NCBI RefSeq assembly: GCF_013401515.1
Contig: NZ_CP058532.1
Coordinates: 84,858-148,857 of the forward strand
Source: Halorarum halophilum
Lineage (GTDB): Archaea; Halobacteriota; Halobacteria; Halobacteriales; Haloferacaceae
Direction: 5' to 3'
Length of the DNA stretch: 64,000 nucleotides
Notes under the pieces: generated by a model
Database searches by the model: none
What the model was told of the DNA's origin: nothing
What the model saw: the letters and a program-made list of their open reading frames with translations, nothing else
Shown: positions 4,323 to 35,206 of the stretch, piece by piece
Layout: the number at the start of each line of letters is the position of its first letter
How positions within the stretch are numbered: the first letter of the stretch is position 1
Made by a program: the position numbers and the translations under genes

Positions 4323-4383
4323 ATGTTATCAGAATCTTTATATCTGCATACTGAGAAGATAGAAGTATGGGACAAAAATCCCA
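4323..4383 (+). promoter_or_regulatory. early promoter 7 with start-codon hairpin
   Basis: TGTTATCAGAATCTTTATAT with TATA box TTTATATC at 4337-4344; ATG 4367; hairpin TGGGA (4368-4372)/TCCCA (4379-4383), loop CAAAAA. It begins only 4 bases after the protease stop. Confidence 0.75.
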
Positions 4384-4561
4384 CCCAACGGACGAGCGGG
4401 TAGTCAAGGACTCGCTGTGGTACGACGAGGAGTACGAGGAGGTCGTGCGAGTCGTGAGCGTGAACCGAAACAGTGCGACAGTCGAGGGGCCGAGCGGGAT
4501 GAGCTGTGCCCCGTTCTCGTGCTTCGGCGAGTCGCTGCGGTACGAGGAGTTCGACGGGTAG
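4367..4561 (+). CDS. 64-aa hypothetical early protein
   Basis: It starts MGQKSHPTDER and continues as a small beta-rich acidic protein with two cysteines (SCAPFSC) near residues 46-52. The sequence VVRVVSVNRNSATVEGPSGM suggests a small SH3-like or OB-like barrel, but this is only an impression. It is a single-gene unit. Confidence 0.7.
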   Translation: MGQKSHPTDERVVKDSLWYDEEYEEVVRVVSVNRNSATVEGPSGMSCAPFSCFGESLRYEEFDG

Positions 4562-8779: not shown

Positions 8780-9197
8780 GTGGACGGCAACGTACGACGT
8801 CGAGCTGAATCGGTACACCGACGCGGACGTGACGATTTGGTACCAGACGACTGTCGAGGCGCCACTCGAGTGCGACGACGACGTGCTCCACGAGATGGCG
8901 GTCGAGAAGGCACTTGAGGCCGAGCCGAATGTTCCGCCGTCAGAGTTGGAGCTGGCGTTCGTCGAGCGGACTGCGGTCGAGTCGGATGAACACCGGTTCG
9001 AGTTCACCGAGCGCGTGTCGTACCACGTTGGCGAGCAGGACCGACTTGGTCTCATGTTCGGTGTCACCGAACAAGACGGAGAGGTACGGTTCCTGGTGCT
9101 GGTCGACGAAGTGAACGGTGAGCACCAGGAGGGTGACACCGTCGACGAGGTGCCGTTCGACGCGATCTGTGAGATCGTGGAGGATGACGATGAGTGA
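8772..9197 (+). CDS. 141-aa hypothetical protein
   Basis: Starts MSEWTATYDVELNRYTDADV at the overlap with the previous gene. The N-terminal half has the alternating pattern of a beta domain and helix, and the end is strongly acidic (EIVEDDDE). No motif is recognised. The longer upstream reading to 8586 overlaps coding sequence in another frame and is rejected. Confidence 0.75.
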   Translation: MSEWTATYDVELNRYTDADVTIWYQTTVEAPLECDDDVLHEMAVEKALEAEPNVPPSELELAFVERTAVESDEHRFEFTERVSYHVGEQDRLGLMFGVTEQDGEVRFLVLVDEVNGEHQEGDTVDEVPFDAICEIVEDDDE

Positions 9198-11254: not shown

Positions 11255-11340
11255 TCCCGTTGGAGTAGACGGTGTTCGATTCCCGTCCGGGATTTCAGCG
11301 TCCCCACGCCGGCGCTCTACAAACGAGGCGTGAACGGAGT
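11255..11340 (+). ncRNA. tRNA-like leader element, copy A
   Basis: A 5-bp outer stem TCCCG (11255-11259)/CGGGA (11288-11292) encloses linker TTGGAGTA and a T-arm-like hairpin GACGG (11268-11272)/CCGTC (11283-11287) whose loop holds TTCGATT. A second hairpin CACGCC (11305-11310)/GGCGTG (11327-11332) follows, then AACGGAGT and ATG 11349. Copies at 13713 and 27417 keep the architecture but have different, still complementary, stems. There is no D-arm or anticodon arm, so this is not a tRNA. Confidence 0.65.
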
Positions 11341-11348
11341 GTAACCCA

Positions 11349-11663
11349 ATGGAAGCGAAAGACATCGACGACATCCCCGACGAGTTGATCGAGAAGGTGA
11401 TCAACACGCAGGGGTTCCAGAAGATGGTAAAGTACAGCCAGCTGGCTGACAGCGTAGAAGTCCTGGAGGACGACGACTCGCTGTTCAACTCGCTGGTGAA
11501 GAACATCACGAGCAAGCACAAGAACGGGATCAGCGAAGAGTCGACCCGCGAGTTCTTCGCCCTGTTCGTCGAGGAAGTCCAGACGTTCACGGAGCCGCTG
11601 GTCGACGACGACGGCGGGGAGATCGACTCGGCCGAGCTCGAAGATCTCTACGTGGAGGAGTAA
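11349..11663 (+). CDS. 104-aa acidic helical protein behind structured leader
   Basis: MEAKDIDDIPDELIEKVINT. Largely helical and acidic, ending AELEDLYVEE. No family recognised. It has the tRNA-like leader element immediately upstream. Its stop shares a base with the next ATG (TAATG at 11661-11665). Confidence 0.7.
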   Translation: MEAKDIDDIPDELIEKVINTQGFQKMVKYSQLADSVEVLEDDDSLFNSLVKNITSKHKNGISEESTREFFALFVEEVQTFTEPLVDDDGGEIDSAELEDLYVEE

Positions 11664-12073
11664 TGGAGCTCGTCGTAACGGCCTACGGTCAGAGCCCGAA
11701 GCTGGTCACGAAGCCCGATTCACTCGTTCGTGACGGCTATGCCGCCGACGCCTGGGTGCTGTGTACGCAGCTGCTCGGCCAGCGCGACGATGAGATGCTC
11801 GTCCAGCTCAGGAACGATGAGGGCGACAACTGGCTGGTCGACGAGAAGGGGCTCAAGTCGGCGGTGCTCCAGCAAGACTGCGTCTACCTCACGGTCGGAC
11901 ACCGAACGGACAACGCGATCCTCGTCGACCAGTTCGGCGTCGGCACCCCGAGCGGTGTTTCGATGCGGTACCCGGTCGGCGATCTCTGGCTCCCGAAGAG
12001 TCAGATCACGATGTTCGAACCGAAAACACCCAGCACTGACTCAGACCGAGCAGGTGCCACCACAACCGAATGA
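11663..12073 (+). CDS. 136-aa hypothetical protein
   Basis: MELVVTAYGQSPKLVTKPDS, an alpha/beta protein with a Ser/Thr/Ala-rich acidic tail. A segment ending WLPKSQITMFEPK closes the folded part. Overlaps both neighbours (TAATG at the start, ATGA at the end). Function unknown. Confidence 0.7.
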   Translation: MELVVTAYGQSPKLVTKPDSLVRDGYAADAWVLCTQLLGQRDDEMLVQLRNDEGDNWLVDEKGLKSAVLQQDCVYLTVGHRTDNAILVDQFGVGTPSGVSMRYPVGDLWLPKSQITMFEPKTPSTDSDRAGATTTE

Positions 12074-12732
12074 CCCAGAATCCCACCCAGATGGAAGCAA
12101 CCGAGCCGATAGCCCGCGTCAACGAGCTCAATCTGACGCTCGACAAGCACGAACCAATGGAACAGCTGATGACCATGCTCGAGGCCGCTGGGATCGACGA
12201 TGATCAGATCGTCAGCGCCCACATCTCGATCGAGTTCGTCGATCAGAGTGGACTCCCGACCCTCGGCGAAGCCGACCAGCTCGATGGGATCGATACCAAA
12301 TCGCAGCACACGCGATACACGATCGACGACTTCGAAGCGGACATGGCGGACGTGGCCGACGACACCGATGCCAAGCAGTCGGAGACAGAACAACCGGAGC
12401 CGCAGGCGGAGGTCGCGTTGAACGTGGCTCCGTACGCCGACGTGCCGACGGTCGAATACGGCTCACAGCGGTACGCCATCCTGAAACACGCGGAGAAGCT
12501 GACTGACGAGGGTGAGTGGGCGATCCCGGGAGAGATCGCCGACCAGCTCGACATCCCGCACGCGTCGGTCAGTTCGTCGTTCGGCAAGTACGCCGACAAG
12601 GAGATCGTCGAACGTGCGGAACGAGAGGGAATGCAACAGCCCGCCTACAAGTACCAGATCACGCTTCTCGGTCGCGAGATGCTCCGCCGGTCGGAGTTCG
12701 CAGAAGAGCAGCGCCAGAACGAGGGTGAATGA
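12070..12732 (+). CDS. 220-aa winged-helix DNA-binding protein
   Basis: The C-terminal 90 residues form a probable winged helix: YAILKHAEKLTDEGEWAIPG, a second helix (EIADQLDIPHASVSSSFGKY) as turn and recognition helix, then the wing (ADKEIVERAE, YKYQITLLGREML). The N-terminal half is an acidic alpha/beta domain joined by a Glu/Gln/Pro linker. It is probably a virus transcription regulator. Its first codons, MTQNPTQM, and the DNA CAGAATCCCACCCAGA resemble the early start module, which may point to a shared origin. ATGA overlap with the previous gene. Confidence 0.7.
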   Translation: MTQNPTQMEATEPIARVNELNLTLDKHEPMEQLMTMLEAAGIDDDQIVSAHISIEFVDQSGLPTLGEADQLDGIDTKSQHTRYTIDDFEADMADVADDTDAKQSETEQPEPQAEVALNVAPYADVPTVEYGSQRYAILKHAEKLTDEGEWAIPGEIADQLDIPHASVSSSFGKYADKEIVERAEREGMQQPAYKYQITLLGREMLRRSEFAEEQRQNEGE

Positions 12733-13007: not shown

Positions 13008-13017
13008 CGGAAGCAGG

Positions 13018-13105
13018 TCGCCTGTGGTGGCATGTTCGAGATAGGTCGGTATTAATAATTCTTACATAATTGCCCCTGTGTGGGTACAGGGCTGTGGGTA
13101 CAGCC
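13018..13105 (+). promoter_or_regulatory. TATA box and tandem hairpins upstream of the 13188 gene
   Basis: GTCGCCTGTGGTGGCAT at 13018-13034 repeats a word at 7139. TATA-like TATTAATAA at 13050-13058 would start RNA near 13075, at two perfect consecutive hairpins: CCCTGT (13074-13079)/ACAGGG (13086-13091) and GGCTGT (13090-13095)/ACAGCC (13100-13105). Both loops contain GGGT. Structured leaders starting near TSS recur at 23282, 31786, 36256 and 37531. Confidence 0.55.
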
Positions 13106-13187
13106 GTGGAGACCTGTCTGTGCGCGCTATCTGTTGAACCTTCGAAAGTTATAATGGTCTGTGGTGCTCTGTGTAAGATAGGCGAAT

Positions 13188-13325
13188 ATGCACCTTGACG
13201 ACTACCTCGTGAACACGATGGTCATCCGGCCACGGTCGTTCGATCTTCGGACGCACTACCAGCTGCTCGAGTTCGGCCGAGCCCACCACGAGGGCACCGT
13301 CACGGTCGTGGGCCTCGCATCGTAA
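13188..13325 (+). CDS. 45-aa hypothetical small protein
   Basis: ATG 13188 follows AGTTATAATGG (TATA near 13149), giving a leader of roughly a dozen bases. The product is MHLDDYLVNTMVIRPRSFDL and on, a small basic-to-neutral alpha/beta peptide with several His. It stands alone between two structured non-coding stretches. Function unknown. Confidence 0.55.
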   Translation: MHLDDYLVNTMVIRPRSFDLRTHYQLLEFGRAHHEGTVTVVGLAS

Positions 13326-13788
13326 CATCTGTCGCCTGTCGACCAGCTCTCGACGATATGACCCCTACCCTCGACGTGGAGACAATGACGAATCCGGAGG
13401 TTAGATATAACTATCCTTCACGAATCAACATTATTCCTGGCGTTTTTTGCCAATGGTCCCAAGTTAATGTCACCGTGCCTATCCTTTTAGGCATACTAAC
13501 TAAGTACTTAGCCTCCATGTGGTCATATACGGGGAGATTGACCGGCTGGTTAACATACCGGCTCAAGAACCCGTGCAACTGGGTAGCTGTAAGCGACCCC
13601 ACTCTGGGAAACGATCTGGGTACCTGGGGAGGTCTCAGATCAATCTCGCTTTCGGCTTTTGTAATCCAACTCTTGAATCCAACAGCCGTCGTTGTTGGAC
13701 AACACAACTCAACTCGCGAGACTGGTGTCTGTGACTCCTGTTCGATTCAGGACGCGAGCGTCACCCGTGTCTGGGTGAGGAATCTACG
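13326..13788 (+). ncRNA. long structured leader or ncRNA with tRNA-like element, copy C
   Basis: The stretch is AT-richer than its surroundings and has no gene. TATA box TTAGATATAA lies at 13401-13410. From about 13430 hairpins follow one another: TGGC/GCCA (13438-13452), TGCCTA/TAGGCA (13476-13493), TCCAACA/TGTTGGA (13678-13699). Then comes the tRNA-like element: CTCGCG (13713-13718)/CGCGAG (13753-13758) enclosing AGAC-TGGT-GTCT and a canonical T-arm TCCTG-TTCGATT-CAGGA (13736-13752). TCACCC/GGGTGA (13761-13778) ends 10 bases before ATG 13789. It may be a riboregulatory 5' leader or a processed RNA. Confidence 0.6.
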
Positions 13789-14196
13789 ATGGACGACGAA
13801 CAACCAACTACGCACGGGGTCGCCCCGGCACAAGAGCGGGAGTACAACGTCAAGATGCCGTCCGAGAAGATCGTCTACTTCGACAAGCTCAAAGACGAGA
13901 CGATCACGGTGCGCGACGTCGACGACGATGAAGACTTCGTCACGTATGCGGTCGAGAACGACGTCGAGAGCATGCACACCGAGCCGATGCAGCAGTTCCT
14001 GGCGTACCTGGCCGCCGGGCGCTTCGTGAAGCTGGGAGACCGGCGTCAGCCCCACGGCGTGACCACCACGAACGAAGACATCGCGAACGTCTTCGCCGAA
14101 GCGTACGGGTACGACCCGCGCGACTTCCGGCCGCTCGAGCTCGCGCGGTTCCTGCTGAGCGAACGCCTCGATGAGACCATCGGACTGGATGAGTAA
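13789..14196 (+). CDS. 135-aa hypothetical protein behind structured leader
   Basis: MDDEQPTTHGVAPAQEREYN. An acidic alpha/beta protein with a helical C-terminal part (ELARFLLSERLDETIGL). No family recognised. The long structured leader directly upstream suggests post-transcriptional control. Its end overlaps the next gene by 8 bases. Confidence 0.7.
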   Translation: MDDEQPTTHGVAPAQEREYNVKMPSEKIVYFDKLKDETITVRDVDDDEDFVTYAVENDVESMHTEPMQQFLAYLAAGRFVKLGDRRQPHGVTTTNEDIANVFAEAYGYDPRDFRPLELARFLLSERLDETIGLDE

Positions 14197-15827: not shown

Positions 15828-17459
15828 ATGACGCAAGCAGACATACTGAACGCCAAAGCCGGTCGGTTTGGCAACGTCCCCGGTGCCGCCTCTCGTGCTC
15901 GGATGTCCGAGTTGGTCGAGGGCAAAGGCGCGATCGACCTTCGAAACTACAAGCCGCATTTCACAGCCGGGATCGCTGACCCGGTCGAGGCGCACAAGAC
16001 GTTCGAGAACTGGTGTTGCCGGGTCAAAGACCAGTTGATCGAAGCGTCCGGCATCACACTCCGGCCGTACCAGAAGGAGTTCTCCGACCGCATCGTCAAG
16101 AGCGTCGTCCGCAAGGACGGACAGACGTTCTTCGCTGAGTGGGCTCGTCAGTCAGGGAAGACGGAGACGCTCGCGTCGACGGCGTATGCGATCTCCGTCC
16201 TGTTCGCTCCCATCCGCATCGGGATTTTCGGCCCGAAGCAGCGTCAGGCCGAGATCATGTGGGACCGCGTCAAGGAACGGTACAACCAGCGGCTCCTTGA
16301 CGGGCTCGGGCTCGAGATCGAGACGTACGGCGGGAACACGTTCAAATTGTCGTCCGGTTCTGTGGTCCAGGCAATCACCGCGGGCTCAGGGAACATTGAG
16401 GGGGAGACGTTCGACCTGATCCTGATCGACGAGACGCAGAAGATCAGCCGGCGGATGCTGCTTGCCGAGATCTGGCCGATGGGCGCTGAGACGAACGCAA
16501 CGAAGTGCTGTATCGGCACGCCGCACTTCCAGGACTGCTGGTTCCGCGAGCAGCTCGAACGGCTCAAGGGAACGCCGTTCTGCATGATCTACGACTGGCG
16601 GACGCCCGCGAAGTACTCGAAGAACTACCGGCGCTCGATCGCGAGACAGCTCGAGCAGATGAGCCCAGAGTCCGACGAGTTCCGGACCCAGTACGAGCTC
16701 GAGTGGATTCTGGAGGCCGGGATGTTCATCACGTACGAGGACTGGCGGCGGATGAACCCACCGCCGCTGATGGCACCCTACGTCACCAAGGATGACTTGC
16801 ACCGGGATGGGTCCCTTCAGGACAAGTGGCAAATCCGCGCCGGACTGGACCTCGCGAAGACGCAGGACTCGACCGTACTGACGGTCACGGGCAAGTACTT
16901 CGGTTCGTGGGACCCGTACCACGACAACTTCAGCACCGAGACGATCGTGCTCCTGGACATCGTGGAGATGCAGAACGTCGAGTATCCCGACCAGATGGAC
17001 GTGATCAAAGCGGAACTCGACCGATGGGGAGCGGACGTCGTCGGGGTGGACTCGAACGGCGTGGGTGACCCGATGACGGACATGCTCAAGCGGGAGCTGA
17101 GCCAGCACGTCGAAGGTATCAAGTTCAGCTCGTCGTCGAAGCACGACCTGTACAAGCACGTCGAGCGGAAGATCAAGGTCGAGGAGGAGTGGGACTACTG
17201 CGACTTCGTGATCCCGAAGCAGATCCACGAGTACGAGCACCTGGAGGTACCCATGCGGAAGATGGAGCAGCAGTGGCTCGAGCTGATCAAGGATTACAAC
17301 GGGTCGCGGATGAAGGTCGAGGCGAAGGAGGGCGGGCACGACGACTTCCCGGACTCGGCCGCGCTCGCCATGTGGGTCCAGGACGCCGACTACAACATCG
17401 ACCAGAAGCACATGACGTCGCCGACCCCGGTGCTCGGTTCGTTCAACGTCGGCTACTGA
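15828..17459 (+). CDS. terL: terminase large subunit
   Basis: The 543-aa DNA-packaging motor shows an N-terminal ATPase with Walker A ARQSGKT (residues 106-112), Walker B DLILIDE (196-202) and a coupling motif after TKCCIGTPHF (226-235). The C-terminal RNase H-like nuclease has its acidic residues in GLDLAKTQDST (about 340-350), VVGVDSNG (about 404-411) and HDDFPDS (about 505-512). It would cut and translocate viral DNA into the capsid through the portal encoded 230 bases downstream. Length and motif order are normal for tailed viruses. The start follows a short leader containing no TATA box, so it is probably co-transcribed with terS. Confidence 0.95.
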   Translation: MTQADILNAKAGRFGNVPGAASRARMSELVEGKGAIDLRNYKPHFTAGIADPVEAHKTFENWCCRVKDQLIEASGITLRPYQKEFSDRIVKSVVRKDGQTFFAEWARQSGKTETLASTAYAISVLFAPIRIGIFGPKQRQAEIMWDRVKERYNQRLLDGLGLEIETYGGNTFKLSSGSVVQAITAGSGNIEGETFDLILIDETQKISRRMLLAEIWPMGAETNATKCCIGTPHFQDCWFREQLERLKGTPFCMIYDWRTPAKYSKNYRRSIARQLEQMSPESDEFRTQYELEWILEAGMFITYEDWRRMNPPPLMAPYVTKDDLHRDGSLQDKWQIRAGLDLAKTQDSTVLTVTGKYFGSWDPYHDNFSTETIVLLDIVEMQNVEYPDQMDVIKAELDRWGADVVGVDSNGVGDPMTDMLKRELSQHVEGIKFSSSSKHDLYKHVERKIKVEEEWDYCDFVIPKQIHEYEHLEVPMRKMEQQWLELIKDYNGSRMKVEAKEGGHDDFPDSAALAMWVQDADYNIDQKHMTSPTPVLGSFNVGY

Positions 17460-27416: not shown

Positions 27417-27492
27417 CCCACTTGGACTTCGCCGGGGTTCGACTCCTCGGGTGGGCGTGCGCTCCCCACAGGCGCCTACCAAATGCTGTGGG
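27417..27492 (+). ncRNA. tRNA-like leader element, copy B
   Basis: Outer stem CCCAC (27417-27421)/GTGGG (27451-27455), linker TTGGACTTCG, and a canonical T-arm CCGGGG-TTCGACT-CCTCGG (27432-27450). A second hairpin CCCACAG (27465-27471)/CTGTGGG (27486-27492) has loop GCGCCTACCAAATG, close to the loop GGCGCTCTACAAACGA of copy A. ATG 27506 follows after 13 bases. The element lies just after a stop codon and an ACATGCCACCA word. Confidence 0.65.
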
Positions 27493-27505: not shown

Positions 27506-27706
27506 ATGCAAGCAGCTACCCAAACTGACTCCCCAGAGCCCGTCGCGCTCGACGAGGAAGATGAGTTGTCCATCCGTGAAATGGACGATGCGGATCTCGT
27601 CGTCGAGTACGCCCGGGCTCACCAACGAATCGAGAACGAATTAGAACGGATGGATAGTCTGTTCGAAGAACTACGCTTCCGCTCGAAACACGGAGACCGC
27701 CCATGA
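27506..27706 (+). CDS. 66-aa acidic coiled-coil-like protein behind structured leader
   Basis: MQAATQTDSPEPVALDEEDE, then one long helix (VVEYARAHQRIENELERMDS). Start 27506 is chosen because the upstream in-frame codons fall within the tRNA-like element. It overlaps the next gene by ATGA. Function unknown. Confidence 0.7.
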   Translation: MQAATQTDSPEPVALDEEDELSIREMDDADLVVEYARAHQRIENELERMDSLFEELRFRSKHGDRP

Positions 27707-34785: not shown

Positions 34786-35206
34786 CGACGATGCGGAGGT
34801 CGAGTTCGACGACTCGCTCGACCCTGGGAACCGAACGGTGTACTTCGAACGAAGTCAAGACGACGAGAAGGAGTACCCGGACACGTACCGGAAGGCATCC
34901 GTCACGGAGTTGGCATCGGGACGGGAAGTACTCAGAGTCGGTCTCACTGCGCGGCAACTCCAGGGATGGGCCGATACGCTCGGGGCAAAGCTCTCGGATG
35001 ATCGGCGTCGGGTCGGTGAGGATCTTGCGACGGTCGACGAGGTGTACGTGCTGTACCTCACGCGTGATGGTGCACACGTCGAATCGAAGGGTGTCGCGTT
35101 CACGTTCAACGCGGCGAAGAAGGCGCAAGCCCGCCTGAGAGACGACCTGGAGATGCCGTGGTCTGAGGAGATCGAGATCGAGACGATCCCGTTCTTCACT
35201 GACTGA
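34778..35206 (+). CDS. 142-aa hypothetical protein
   Basis: MSDDDAEVEFDDSLDPGNRT. An acidic start, then an alpha/beta domain (VYVLYLTRDGAHVESKGVAF) with a basic helix (FNAAKKAQARLRDDL). No recognised family. Confidence 0.65.
   Translation: MSDDDAEVEFDDSLDPGNRTVYFERSQDDEKEYPDTYRKASVTELASGREVLRVGLTARQLQGWADTLGAKLSDDRRRVGEDLATVDEVYVLYLTRDGAHVESKGVAFTFNAAKKAQARLRDDLEMPWSEEIEIETIPFFTD

Follow-up and report, generated by a model that had tools for sequence, protein, structure and literature searches.

The tRNA-processing enzyme tRNase Z cuts a tRNA after the 12 base pairs of the acceptor and T stems plus the discriminator base, that is, 13 nt past the T-loop. The closest described relative of the structures reported here is the t-element of Haloferax volcanii, a tRNA-like structure located before 5S rRNA and cut by tRNase Z (PMC3296008, PMC4326828; the underlying work is Holzle 2008 and 2012, as cited in PMC4326828, PMC3296008, and PMC7714728). 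PMC4326828 describes t-elements as RNase P substrates as well and reports that a pair of them set an engineered crRNA free in vivo. In mitochondrial tRNA punctuation (PMC9181182), tRNA-processing enzymes cut at tRNAs or tRNA-like structures and so free mRNAs or their ends. Haloviruses of the HF1 group carry a partial tRNA that acts as attP; this integration site matches a host tRNA (PMC8707807, PMC7230728).

Three t-Element-like Structures in a Haloarchaeal Tailed Virus

The window, i.e., the whole stretch of 64,000 nt analysed here, covers positions 84858 to 148857 of contig C4 and reaches the end of this contig (148,857 bp, in a haloarchaeal genome of 4.28 Mb and 4 contigs). It carries tailed-virus genes coding for a terminase (at 15828), a portal, a tail sheath, a thymidylate synthase, and a ribonucleotide reductase, while its tape measure resembles that of phiH. 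Megablast of window positions 1–25000 against phages gave no match, and an alignment search of genome contigs with the terminase found no relatives.

Elements A, B, and C (Table 1) lie on the strand of the window genes. As originally predicted, three copies of an acceptor stem plus T-arm precede start codons and are followed by a later hairpin. All have the t-element layout: an acceptor placed on a T-stem, a 7-nt TTCRANY loop, and no anticodon arm. The acceptor of A, TCCCG/CGGGA (11255–11259 and 11288–11292), encloses a linker with TTGG and a T-loop TTCGATT at 11275–11281, whose T-stem has a one-base bulge. B has the acceptor CTCGCG/CGCGAG, the T-arm TCCTG[TTCGATT]CAGGA (T-loop at 13741–13747), and a mini D-arm, the 4-bp hairpin AGAC-TGGT-GTCT at 13719–13730. 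In C, the acceptor CCCAC/GTGGG is followed by the linker TTGGACTTCG and the T-arm CCGGGG[TTCGACT]CCTCGG, with the T-loop at 27438–27444. The stems of the three copies are thus all different yet complementary, as had been claimed. The words TTGGA, TCCCCAC, GCGC, and CTAC, which the original prediction gave as shared, recur in the copies at 11255 and 27417 and not in the one at 13713. Its statement that both the D-arm and the anticodon arm are absent holds in full for the latter only, given the mini D-arm of B and the GG kept in every linker (in B as TGGT, in A and C as TTGG).

The likeness to the 5S t-element extends to the 5-bp acceptor, the short GG-linker, the mostly 6-bp T-stem, the 7-nt T-loop, the lack of an anticodon arm, and the T at the predicted cut. 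In contrast to it, the window copies precede virus protein genes, a hairpin or candidate pseudoknot replaces the 5S past the predicted cut, the stems differ from CCGAC/GTCGG, and B has its mini D-arm. Herpesvirus tRNA-like RNAs and mascRNA are viral and cellular tRNA mimics cut by RNase P and RNase Z, but they are eukaryotic and yield small RNAs, not separate cistrons. Unlike the mitochondrial system (PMC9181182), the one proposed here is archaeal, employs tRNA mimics instead of tRNAs, and is used by viruses.

A scan of the element-adjacent genes with Pfam and PHROGs assigned no function, bar one weak match to a transcription regulator for the window ORF at 12070–12732. The region 5′ of element B (13008–13712) has, over about 700 nt, few ORFs and several small hairpins.

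Table 1. Coordinates in the window of the t-elements, predicted cuts, downstream structures, and following genes.
Feature	Position	Strand	Basis or description
t-element A	11255..11292	+	Sequence, fold, orthologues at L006:6484 and L008:4962
t-element B	13713..13758	+	Sequence, geometry, orthologues at L006:8446 and L008:6969
t-element C	27417..27455	+	5S-only model R1, model R2
Predicted tRNase Z cut of A	11294..11295	+	tRNA geometry; next base T
Predicted tRNase Z cut of B	13760..13761	+	tRNA geometry; next base T
Predicted tRNase Z cut of C	27457..27458	+	tRNA geometry; next base T
Structure after cut A	11295..11332	+	Hairpin CACGCC/GGCGTG, loop GGCGC..CTAC.AAA; candidate H-type pseudoknot
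Hairpin after cut B	13761..13778	+	TCACCC/GGGTGA, starts at predicted cut; also in L006 and L008
Structure after cut C	27458..27492	+	TGCGC, hairpin CCCACA/TGTGGG, loop GGCGCCTACCAAATGC; candidate pseudoknot
Gene 3′ of A	11349..11663	+	104 aa; without family match
Gene 3′ of B	13789..14196	+	135 aa; kept in related viruses
Gene 3′ of C	27506..27706	+	66 aa; without blast match to the relatives' 83-aa gene at the same place

Predicted Cuts and Downstream Structures

From the predicted cuts to the ATG there are 54 nt for A, 28 nt for B, and 48 nt for C. T follows the predicted cut at all 15 sites of the window group (A–F in three viruses; the T fraction of the window is 0.167), at 5 of 6 sites in isolated viruses, and at 22 of 22 host sites, although at the model-found sites (E, isolates, hosts) this T is partly built in, because the covariance models R1 and R2 described below include a T column. 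An equal count past the T-loop leads in many 5S leaders to UUAAGGCGG, where mature 5S rRNA starts. Against an expectation of 2.7, 11 of the 12 distinct viral sites show a stem of 5 bp or more starting 0–2 nt past the predicted cut (nominal P 2e-7, with the 0–2 nt range picked after inspection). T and stem thus both stand at a fixed spacing from the viral T-loop. Among the host sites collected by eye, 11 of 22 have such a stem (4.8 expected), which is therefore not universal. An H-type pseudoknot with an A-rich loop could arise in A, C, and their orthologues if GCGC paired with another GCGC, or a variant of it, as a second stem. An automatic pseudoknot search lists this form in the relatives' A and C and does not give it as the best form in those of the window; energy folds do not settle the question.

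This phasing bears on which side of the element matters. A functional RNase P cut on the 5′ side, in place of tRNase Z, would mean that the elements mainly set the 3′ ends of upstream mRNAs. It would agree with the published description of t-elements as substrates of both enzymes (PMC4326828) and with elements that may start soon after the upstream stop codon (7 nt past it in A, 22 nt in C, 2 nt past that of gp62 in virus HFTV1). We nevertheless hold it to be improbable, since both the T and the stem are phased on the 3′ side.

Orthologous Sites in Related Viruses

Querying with the terminase identified three IMG/VR contigs whose protein is 82–85% identical. They amount to two lineages in effect, because the matches of two of them (L006 and L007) to the window are the same. 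A and B are present in L006 and L008, and C in L013 and L014, which are further stretches of the L006/L008 lineages, all at matching places. The relatives have additional sites: D before the thymidylate synthase gene, and E and F before genes of 101 aa and 49 aa. C4 has F too, at L002:17068 upstream of the window. A look for D and E in the window's virus did not reveal them on C4; single elements are therefore dispensable. At the place of E on C4 (L002, about 9000–9100), where no t-element was seen, the downstream piece ACTGGCCCACCCGAA remains.

Double compensatory changes between orthologues affect 5 of 11 pairs in A, 3 in B, 3 in C, and 2 in E. In stems set by hand, 1 of 121 cells is unpaired. 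The pair-change count covers A, B, C, and E, with F and HF2 skipped and the bulged T of the window's A omitted. Because the viral-only MAFFT alignment (A3) put the acceptor stems in wrong places, it did not serve for model building. C is followed in the window by a gene of 66 aa and in the relatives by one of 83 aa; blast finds no match between the two. Since the element is kept while the next gene differs, the RNA and not the gene is conserved.

Two elements with 7-bp acceptors and linkers containing ACTGGTG were observed on the minus strand of another IMG/VR contig (3300032038_000123, L011; positions 827–872 and 21–69). They do not lie directly before ORFs, and a third candidate near 150–200 has the T-loop TGCAACT. 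This contig is AT-rich and presumably encodes a pseudomurein endopeptidase-like protein; we take it to be perhaps from a methanogen virus.

The 5S Leader and Covariance Models

Of 30 5S loci taken from the genomes of the host and its relatives, 26 have the t-element layout. These leaders have the acceptor CCGAC/GTCGG or variants, usually a GG-linker, and a T-stem of 5–6 bp; in most loci the T-loop is TTCGATT or TTCGACT. Two bases and then T come after the element. The window's genus and three others have ATCGTTC or ATCATTC in the 5S T-loop (L016, L022, L028, L032, L034, L039), while the virus keeps TTCGAYT.

The first model, R1, was built from 24 haloarchaeal 5S leaders only (22 distinct rows) and holds no viral sequence; 98.8% of the cells in its alignment are paired, and 9 of 11 pairs changed on both sides. 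Six loci stand outside this alignment (L026, L030, L037, L041, L043, L046), of which L026 and L037 also show the element and L043 has no leader sequence. R2 has 39 rows from 5S leaders, host mRNA leaders, and isolated viruses, none of them from the window's virus group (98.8% paired, 9 of 11 pairs doubly changed). Alignment A4 omits the 5S leaders L032, L034, L039, L040, and L044, the host site L124, and some isolate sites. The linker GG is near-invariant (at least 90%) across the family alignments A2 and A4.

Among the 150 of 6193 first-look candidates that were scored in the 4.28-Mb host genome, R1 places the host's own 5S leader first (54.4 bits) and C second (37.1 bits, E 5e-5). Within the window, C is first with R1 (37.1 bits, E 7e-7), B fifth (E 0.17), and A 27th (E 3.7). 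With R2, C is again first (39.3 bits), followed by B in third (E 0.17) and A in sixth place (E 0.75). R1 gives the orthologues of A 24.8 and 21.5 bits and those of B 19.2 and 11.6 bits (the latter in L006). The R2 scores in the relatives are 47.2 and 39.2 bits for C, 40.6 for E in L057, 26.2 and 24.2 for A, and 18.7 for B in L008. Neither B in L006 nor E in L058 is in the R2 listing, which has F as a T-arm fragment only. A and B are assigned less certainly than C because their model scores alone are below significance, with orthologues supporting both. Covariance searching, the test put forward with the original prediction, found further copies in haloviruses and chromosomes.

Chance Folds and tRNA Remnants

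A strict scan for unbulged geometry (score at least 10) finds two sites in the window, B and C. On 60 dinucleotide shuffles, both strands included, the mean is 0.017 sites per window. A is missed because of its T-stem bulge; a looser, bulge-tolerant scan returns seven sites, namely A, B, C, and four that are chance-like. TTCGA words in GC-rich DNA might yield such folds by chance, an idea to which these four look-alikes and the weakness of A alone in the models lend something. We give it hardly any credence in view of the shuffles and of the orthologues, positions, and model matches, which all speak against it. Chance is very unlikely for C and B, and for A the case against it rests on the orthologues.

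The virus group also carries tRNA genes: 31 are found within one 13-kb stretch of C4 upstream of the window (in L003, C4:44858–64857), and the related contigs G041 and G042 have 16 and 9 in the stretches scanned. Such large arrays resemble that of HGTV-1. In the window, ARAGORN finds no tRNA and Rfam no family at gathering scores; the former result, together with the absent anticodon arm, rules out that the elements are tRNA genes, and the latter that they belong to a known Rfam family. DNA searches of the own genome with A return nothing but itself at E 0.001, and those with B and C give, apart from themselves, weak partial matches only, at E 0.18 or worse. No identity to a host tRNA 3′ end appears in these searches, and a tRNA fragment used for integration was rejected. 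Like the HF1-group attP, the elements are tRNA-like sequences within a halovirus; unlike it (PMC8707807, PMC7230728), they match no host tRNA found and they recur before genes.

We consider it very improbable that the elements are remnants of tRNAs, either genes in decay or attP-like fragments that stem from integration or from the tRNA cluster of the virus. The array on C4 and the tRNA-like attP reported for HF2 (PMC8707807) would provide a source. However, own-genome matches are weak and partial or confined to the element itself, the stems covary across relatives, and the best of the 31 tRNA genes of C4 reaches 17.8 bits with R1 (19.6 with R2), compared to 37.1 for C with R1.

Elements in Isolated Haloviruses

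Searched with R1, 10 of 18 whole halovirus records have full-length matches at E < 1e-3: HF2, HSTV-2, HRTV-13, HRTV-26, HCTV-8, HCTV-9, HSTV-3, HRTV-11, HRTV-25, and HFTV1. Nothing convincing was found with this model in the other eight (HVTV-1, HCTV-1, HHTV-1, phiH, HATV-2, BJ1, HGTV-1, HATV-3), where the best score in the tRNA-rich HGTV-1 is 16.7 bits. Of ten element places checked against annotation, seven are intergenic (two in HF2 and one each in HRTV-26, HSTV-2, HSTV-3, HRTV-25, and HFTV1) and three overlap an annotated small CDS (HSTV-2 45514, HRTV-26 73186, HSTV-3 72597). The overlap is with the CDS start, that of gp120, in both HRTV-26 and HSTV-3. Their gp120 starts may be annotated too far upstream, since the start annotated for the HF2 counterpart lies past the element. 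The predicted cut in HFTV1, with nt 35099 as the expected 5′ end, falls between gp62 and the PCNA gene gp63 and would leave 12 nt to the PCNA start codon; gp62–gp65 are reported as one early gene cluster (PMC12542753).

HF2 offers published transcript data (PMC8707807). Very long transcripts stand there against Northern bands of 0.5–9 kb, with processing as one suggested explanation; this discrepancy fits processing of viral RNA. Primer extension gave a 5′ end at T-4384, which in the HF2 sequence (AF222060) lies inside the element at about 4375–4416, 32 nt 5′ of the predicted cut. If 4384 is a start site, the transcript has no 5′ strand of the acceptor stem. This end within the element is the strongest contrary datum.

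Elements in Haloarchaeal Chromosomes

In 24 genomes, with at most 150 candidates scored per genome, R1 gives 36 matches at E 1e-3: 20 next to 5S, copy C itself, and 15 others. Ten of these 15 have an ORF of 50 aa or more starting 4–30 nt after their end, 13 have one within 130 nt, and two have none nearby. In 8 of the 16 non-5S matches, the element would lie within some same-strand ORF of at least 100 aa if this ORF were read from its first possible start. The proteins that follow ten of the 15 others carry an RRxxL signal at the N-terminus.

A separate set of 23 matches collected by eye, one of which turned out to be 5S, presents a similar picture. Ten of its downstream proteins were scanned with each of two libraries, nine being common to both. 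The SipW-dependent signal peptide (TIGR04088) is over cut-off in two proteins, DUF1102 in four, and camelysin in one, while TafE-like or other Taf fimbrial families are hit in six, all under curated cut-offs. T-elements were observed directly before secreted fibre-type genes (L089–L108, L120–L127), sometimes several per cluster, and in genome G006 three elements 1.6–1.9 kb apart alternate with two fibre-type genes. In 60 genomes of the phylum, R2 (E 1e-4, strict filters) detects elements in 8 of 10 haloarchaea and in none of the 50 others.

Proposed Function

The host genome encodes a tRNase Z (347.6 bits). This enzyme would cut the long viral RNA at the t-elements, whereby the downstream gene would gain a short leader opening with a stem and the upstream RNA a tRNA-like 3′ end. 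On the comparative evidence, host tRNase Z probably cuts polycistronic RNA after the mimics and so frees downstream genes as short-leader mRNAs. Among the roles suggested in the original prediction, that of RNase Z, with its predicted cleavage, is the one we favour, based on the match to the 5S t-element and on downstream structure phased on the predicted cut.

The elements might instead act uncut, as cis-regulatory leaders bound by a protein that recognises the T-arm or elbow (a tRNA-modifying enzyme or a regulator), with the hairpin or pseudoknot switching translation. The T-loop consensus and near-invariant linker GG, as in the tRNA elbow, would suit such binding, as would the loop GGCGC..CTAC.AAA and possible H-type pseudoknot common to A and C; the HF2 5′ end at 4384 (PMC8707807) also misses the predicted cut. 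We find uncut leaders unlikely, though less so than the RNase P alternative. Their layout is that of 5S leaders, for which tRNase Z cutting is published (as cited above), the stems start at the predicted cut, and the downstream structure varies (a simple hairpin in B, a possible pseudoknot in A and C) while its spacing is kept.

Returning to cleavage by tRNase Z, we lean, with less assurance than for the cut itself, towards an operon-punctuation code that haloarchaea and their tailed viruses would share. Cleavage by tRNase Z at anticodon-less tRNA mimics between genes would make near-leaderless mRNAs that start with a hairpin out of internal cistrons; viruses would use the mimics before replication and other genes, and hosts in operons for secreted fibres. 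T-elements themselves are already known. Our literature search found none described in halovirus mRNAs or before host fibre genes, with Holzle 2012 (Biochimie 94:940), which may list host examples, standing outside it. The tRNase Z reading predicts exact 5′ ends, and RNA-seq of HFTV1 infection is published (PMC12542753). The elements bear on the splitting of long polycistronic RNAs in archaea and in their viruses. If true, a tRNA mimic on which an ordinary tRNA enzyme acts would be a simple and portable solution common to virus and host.
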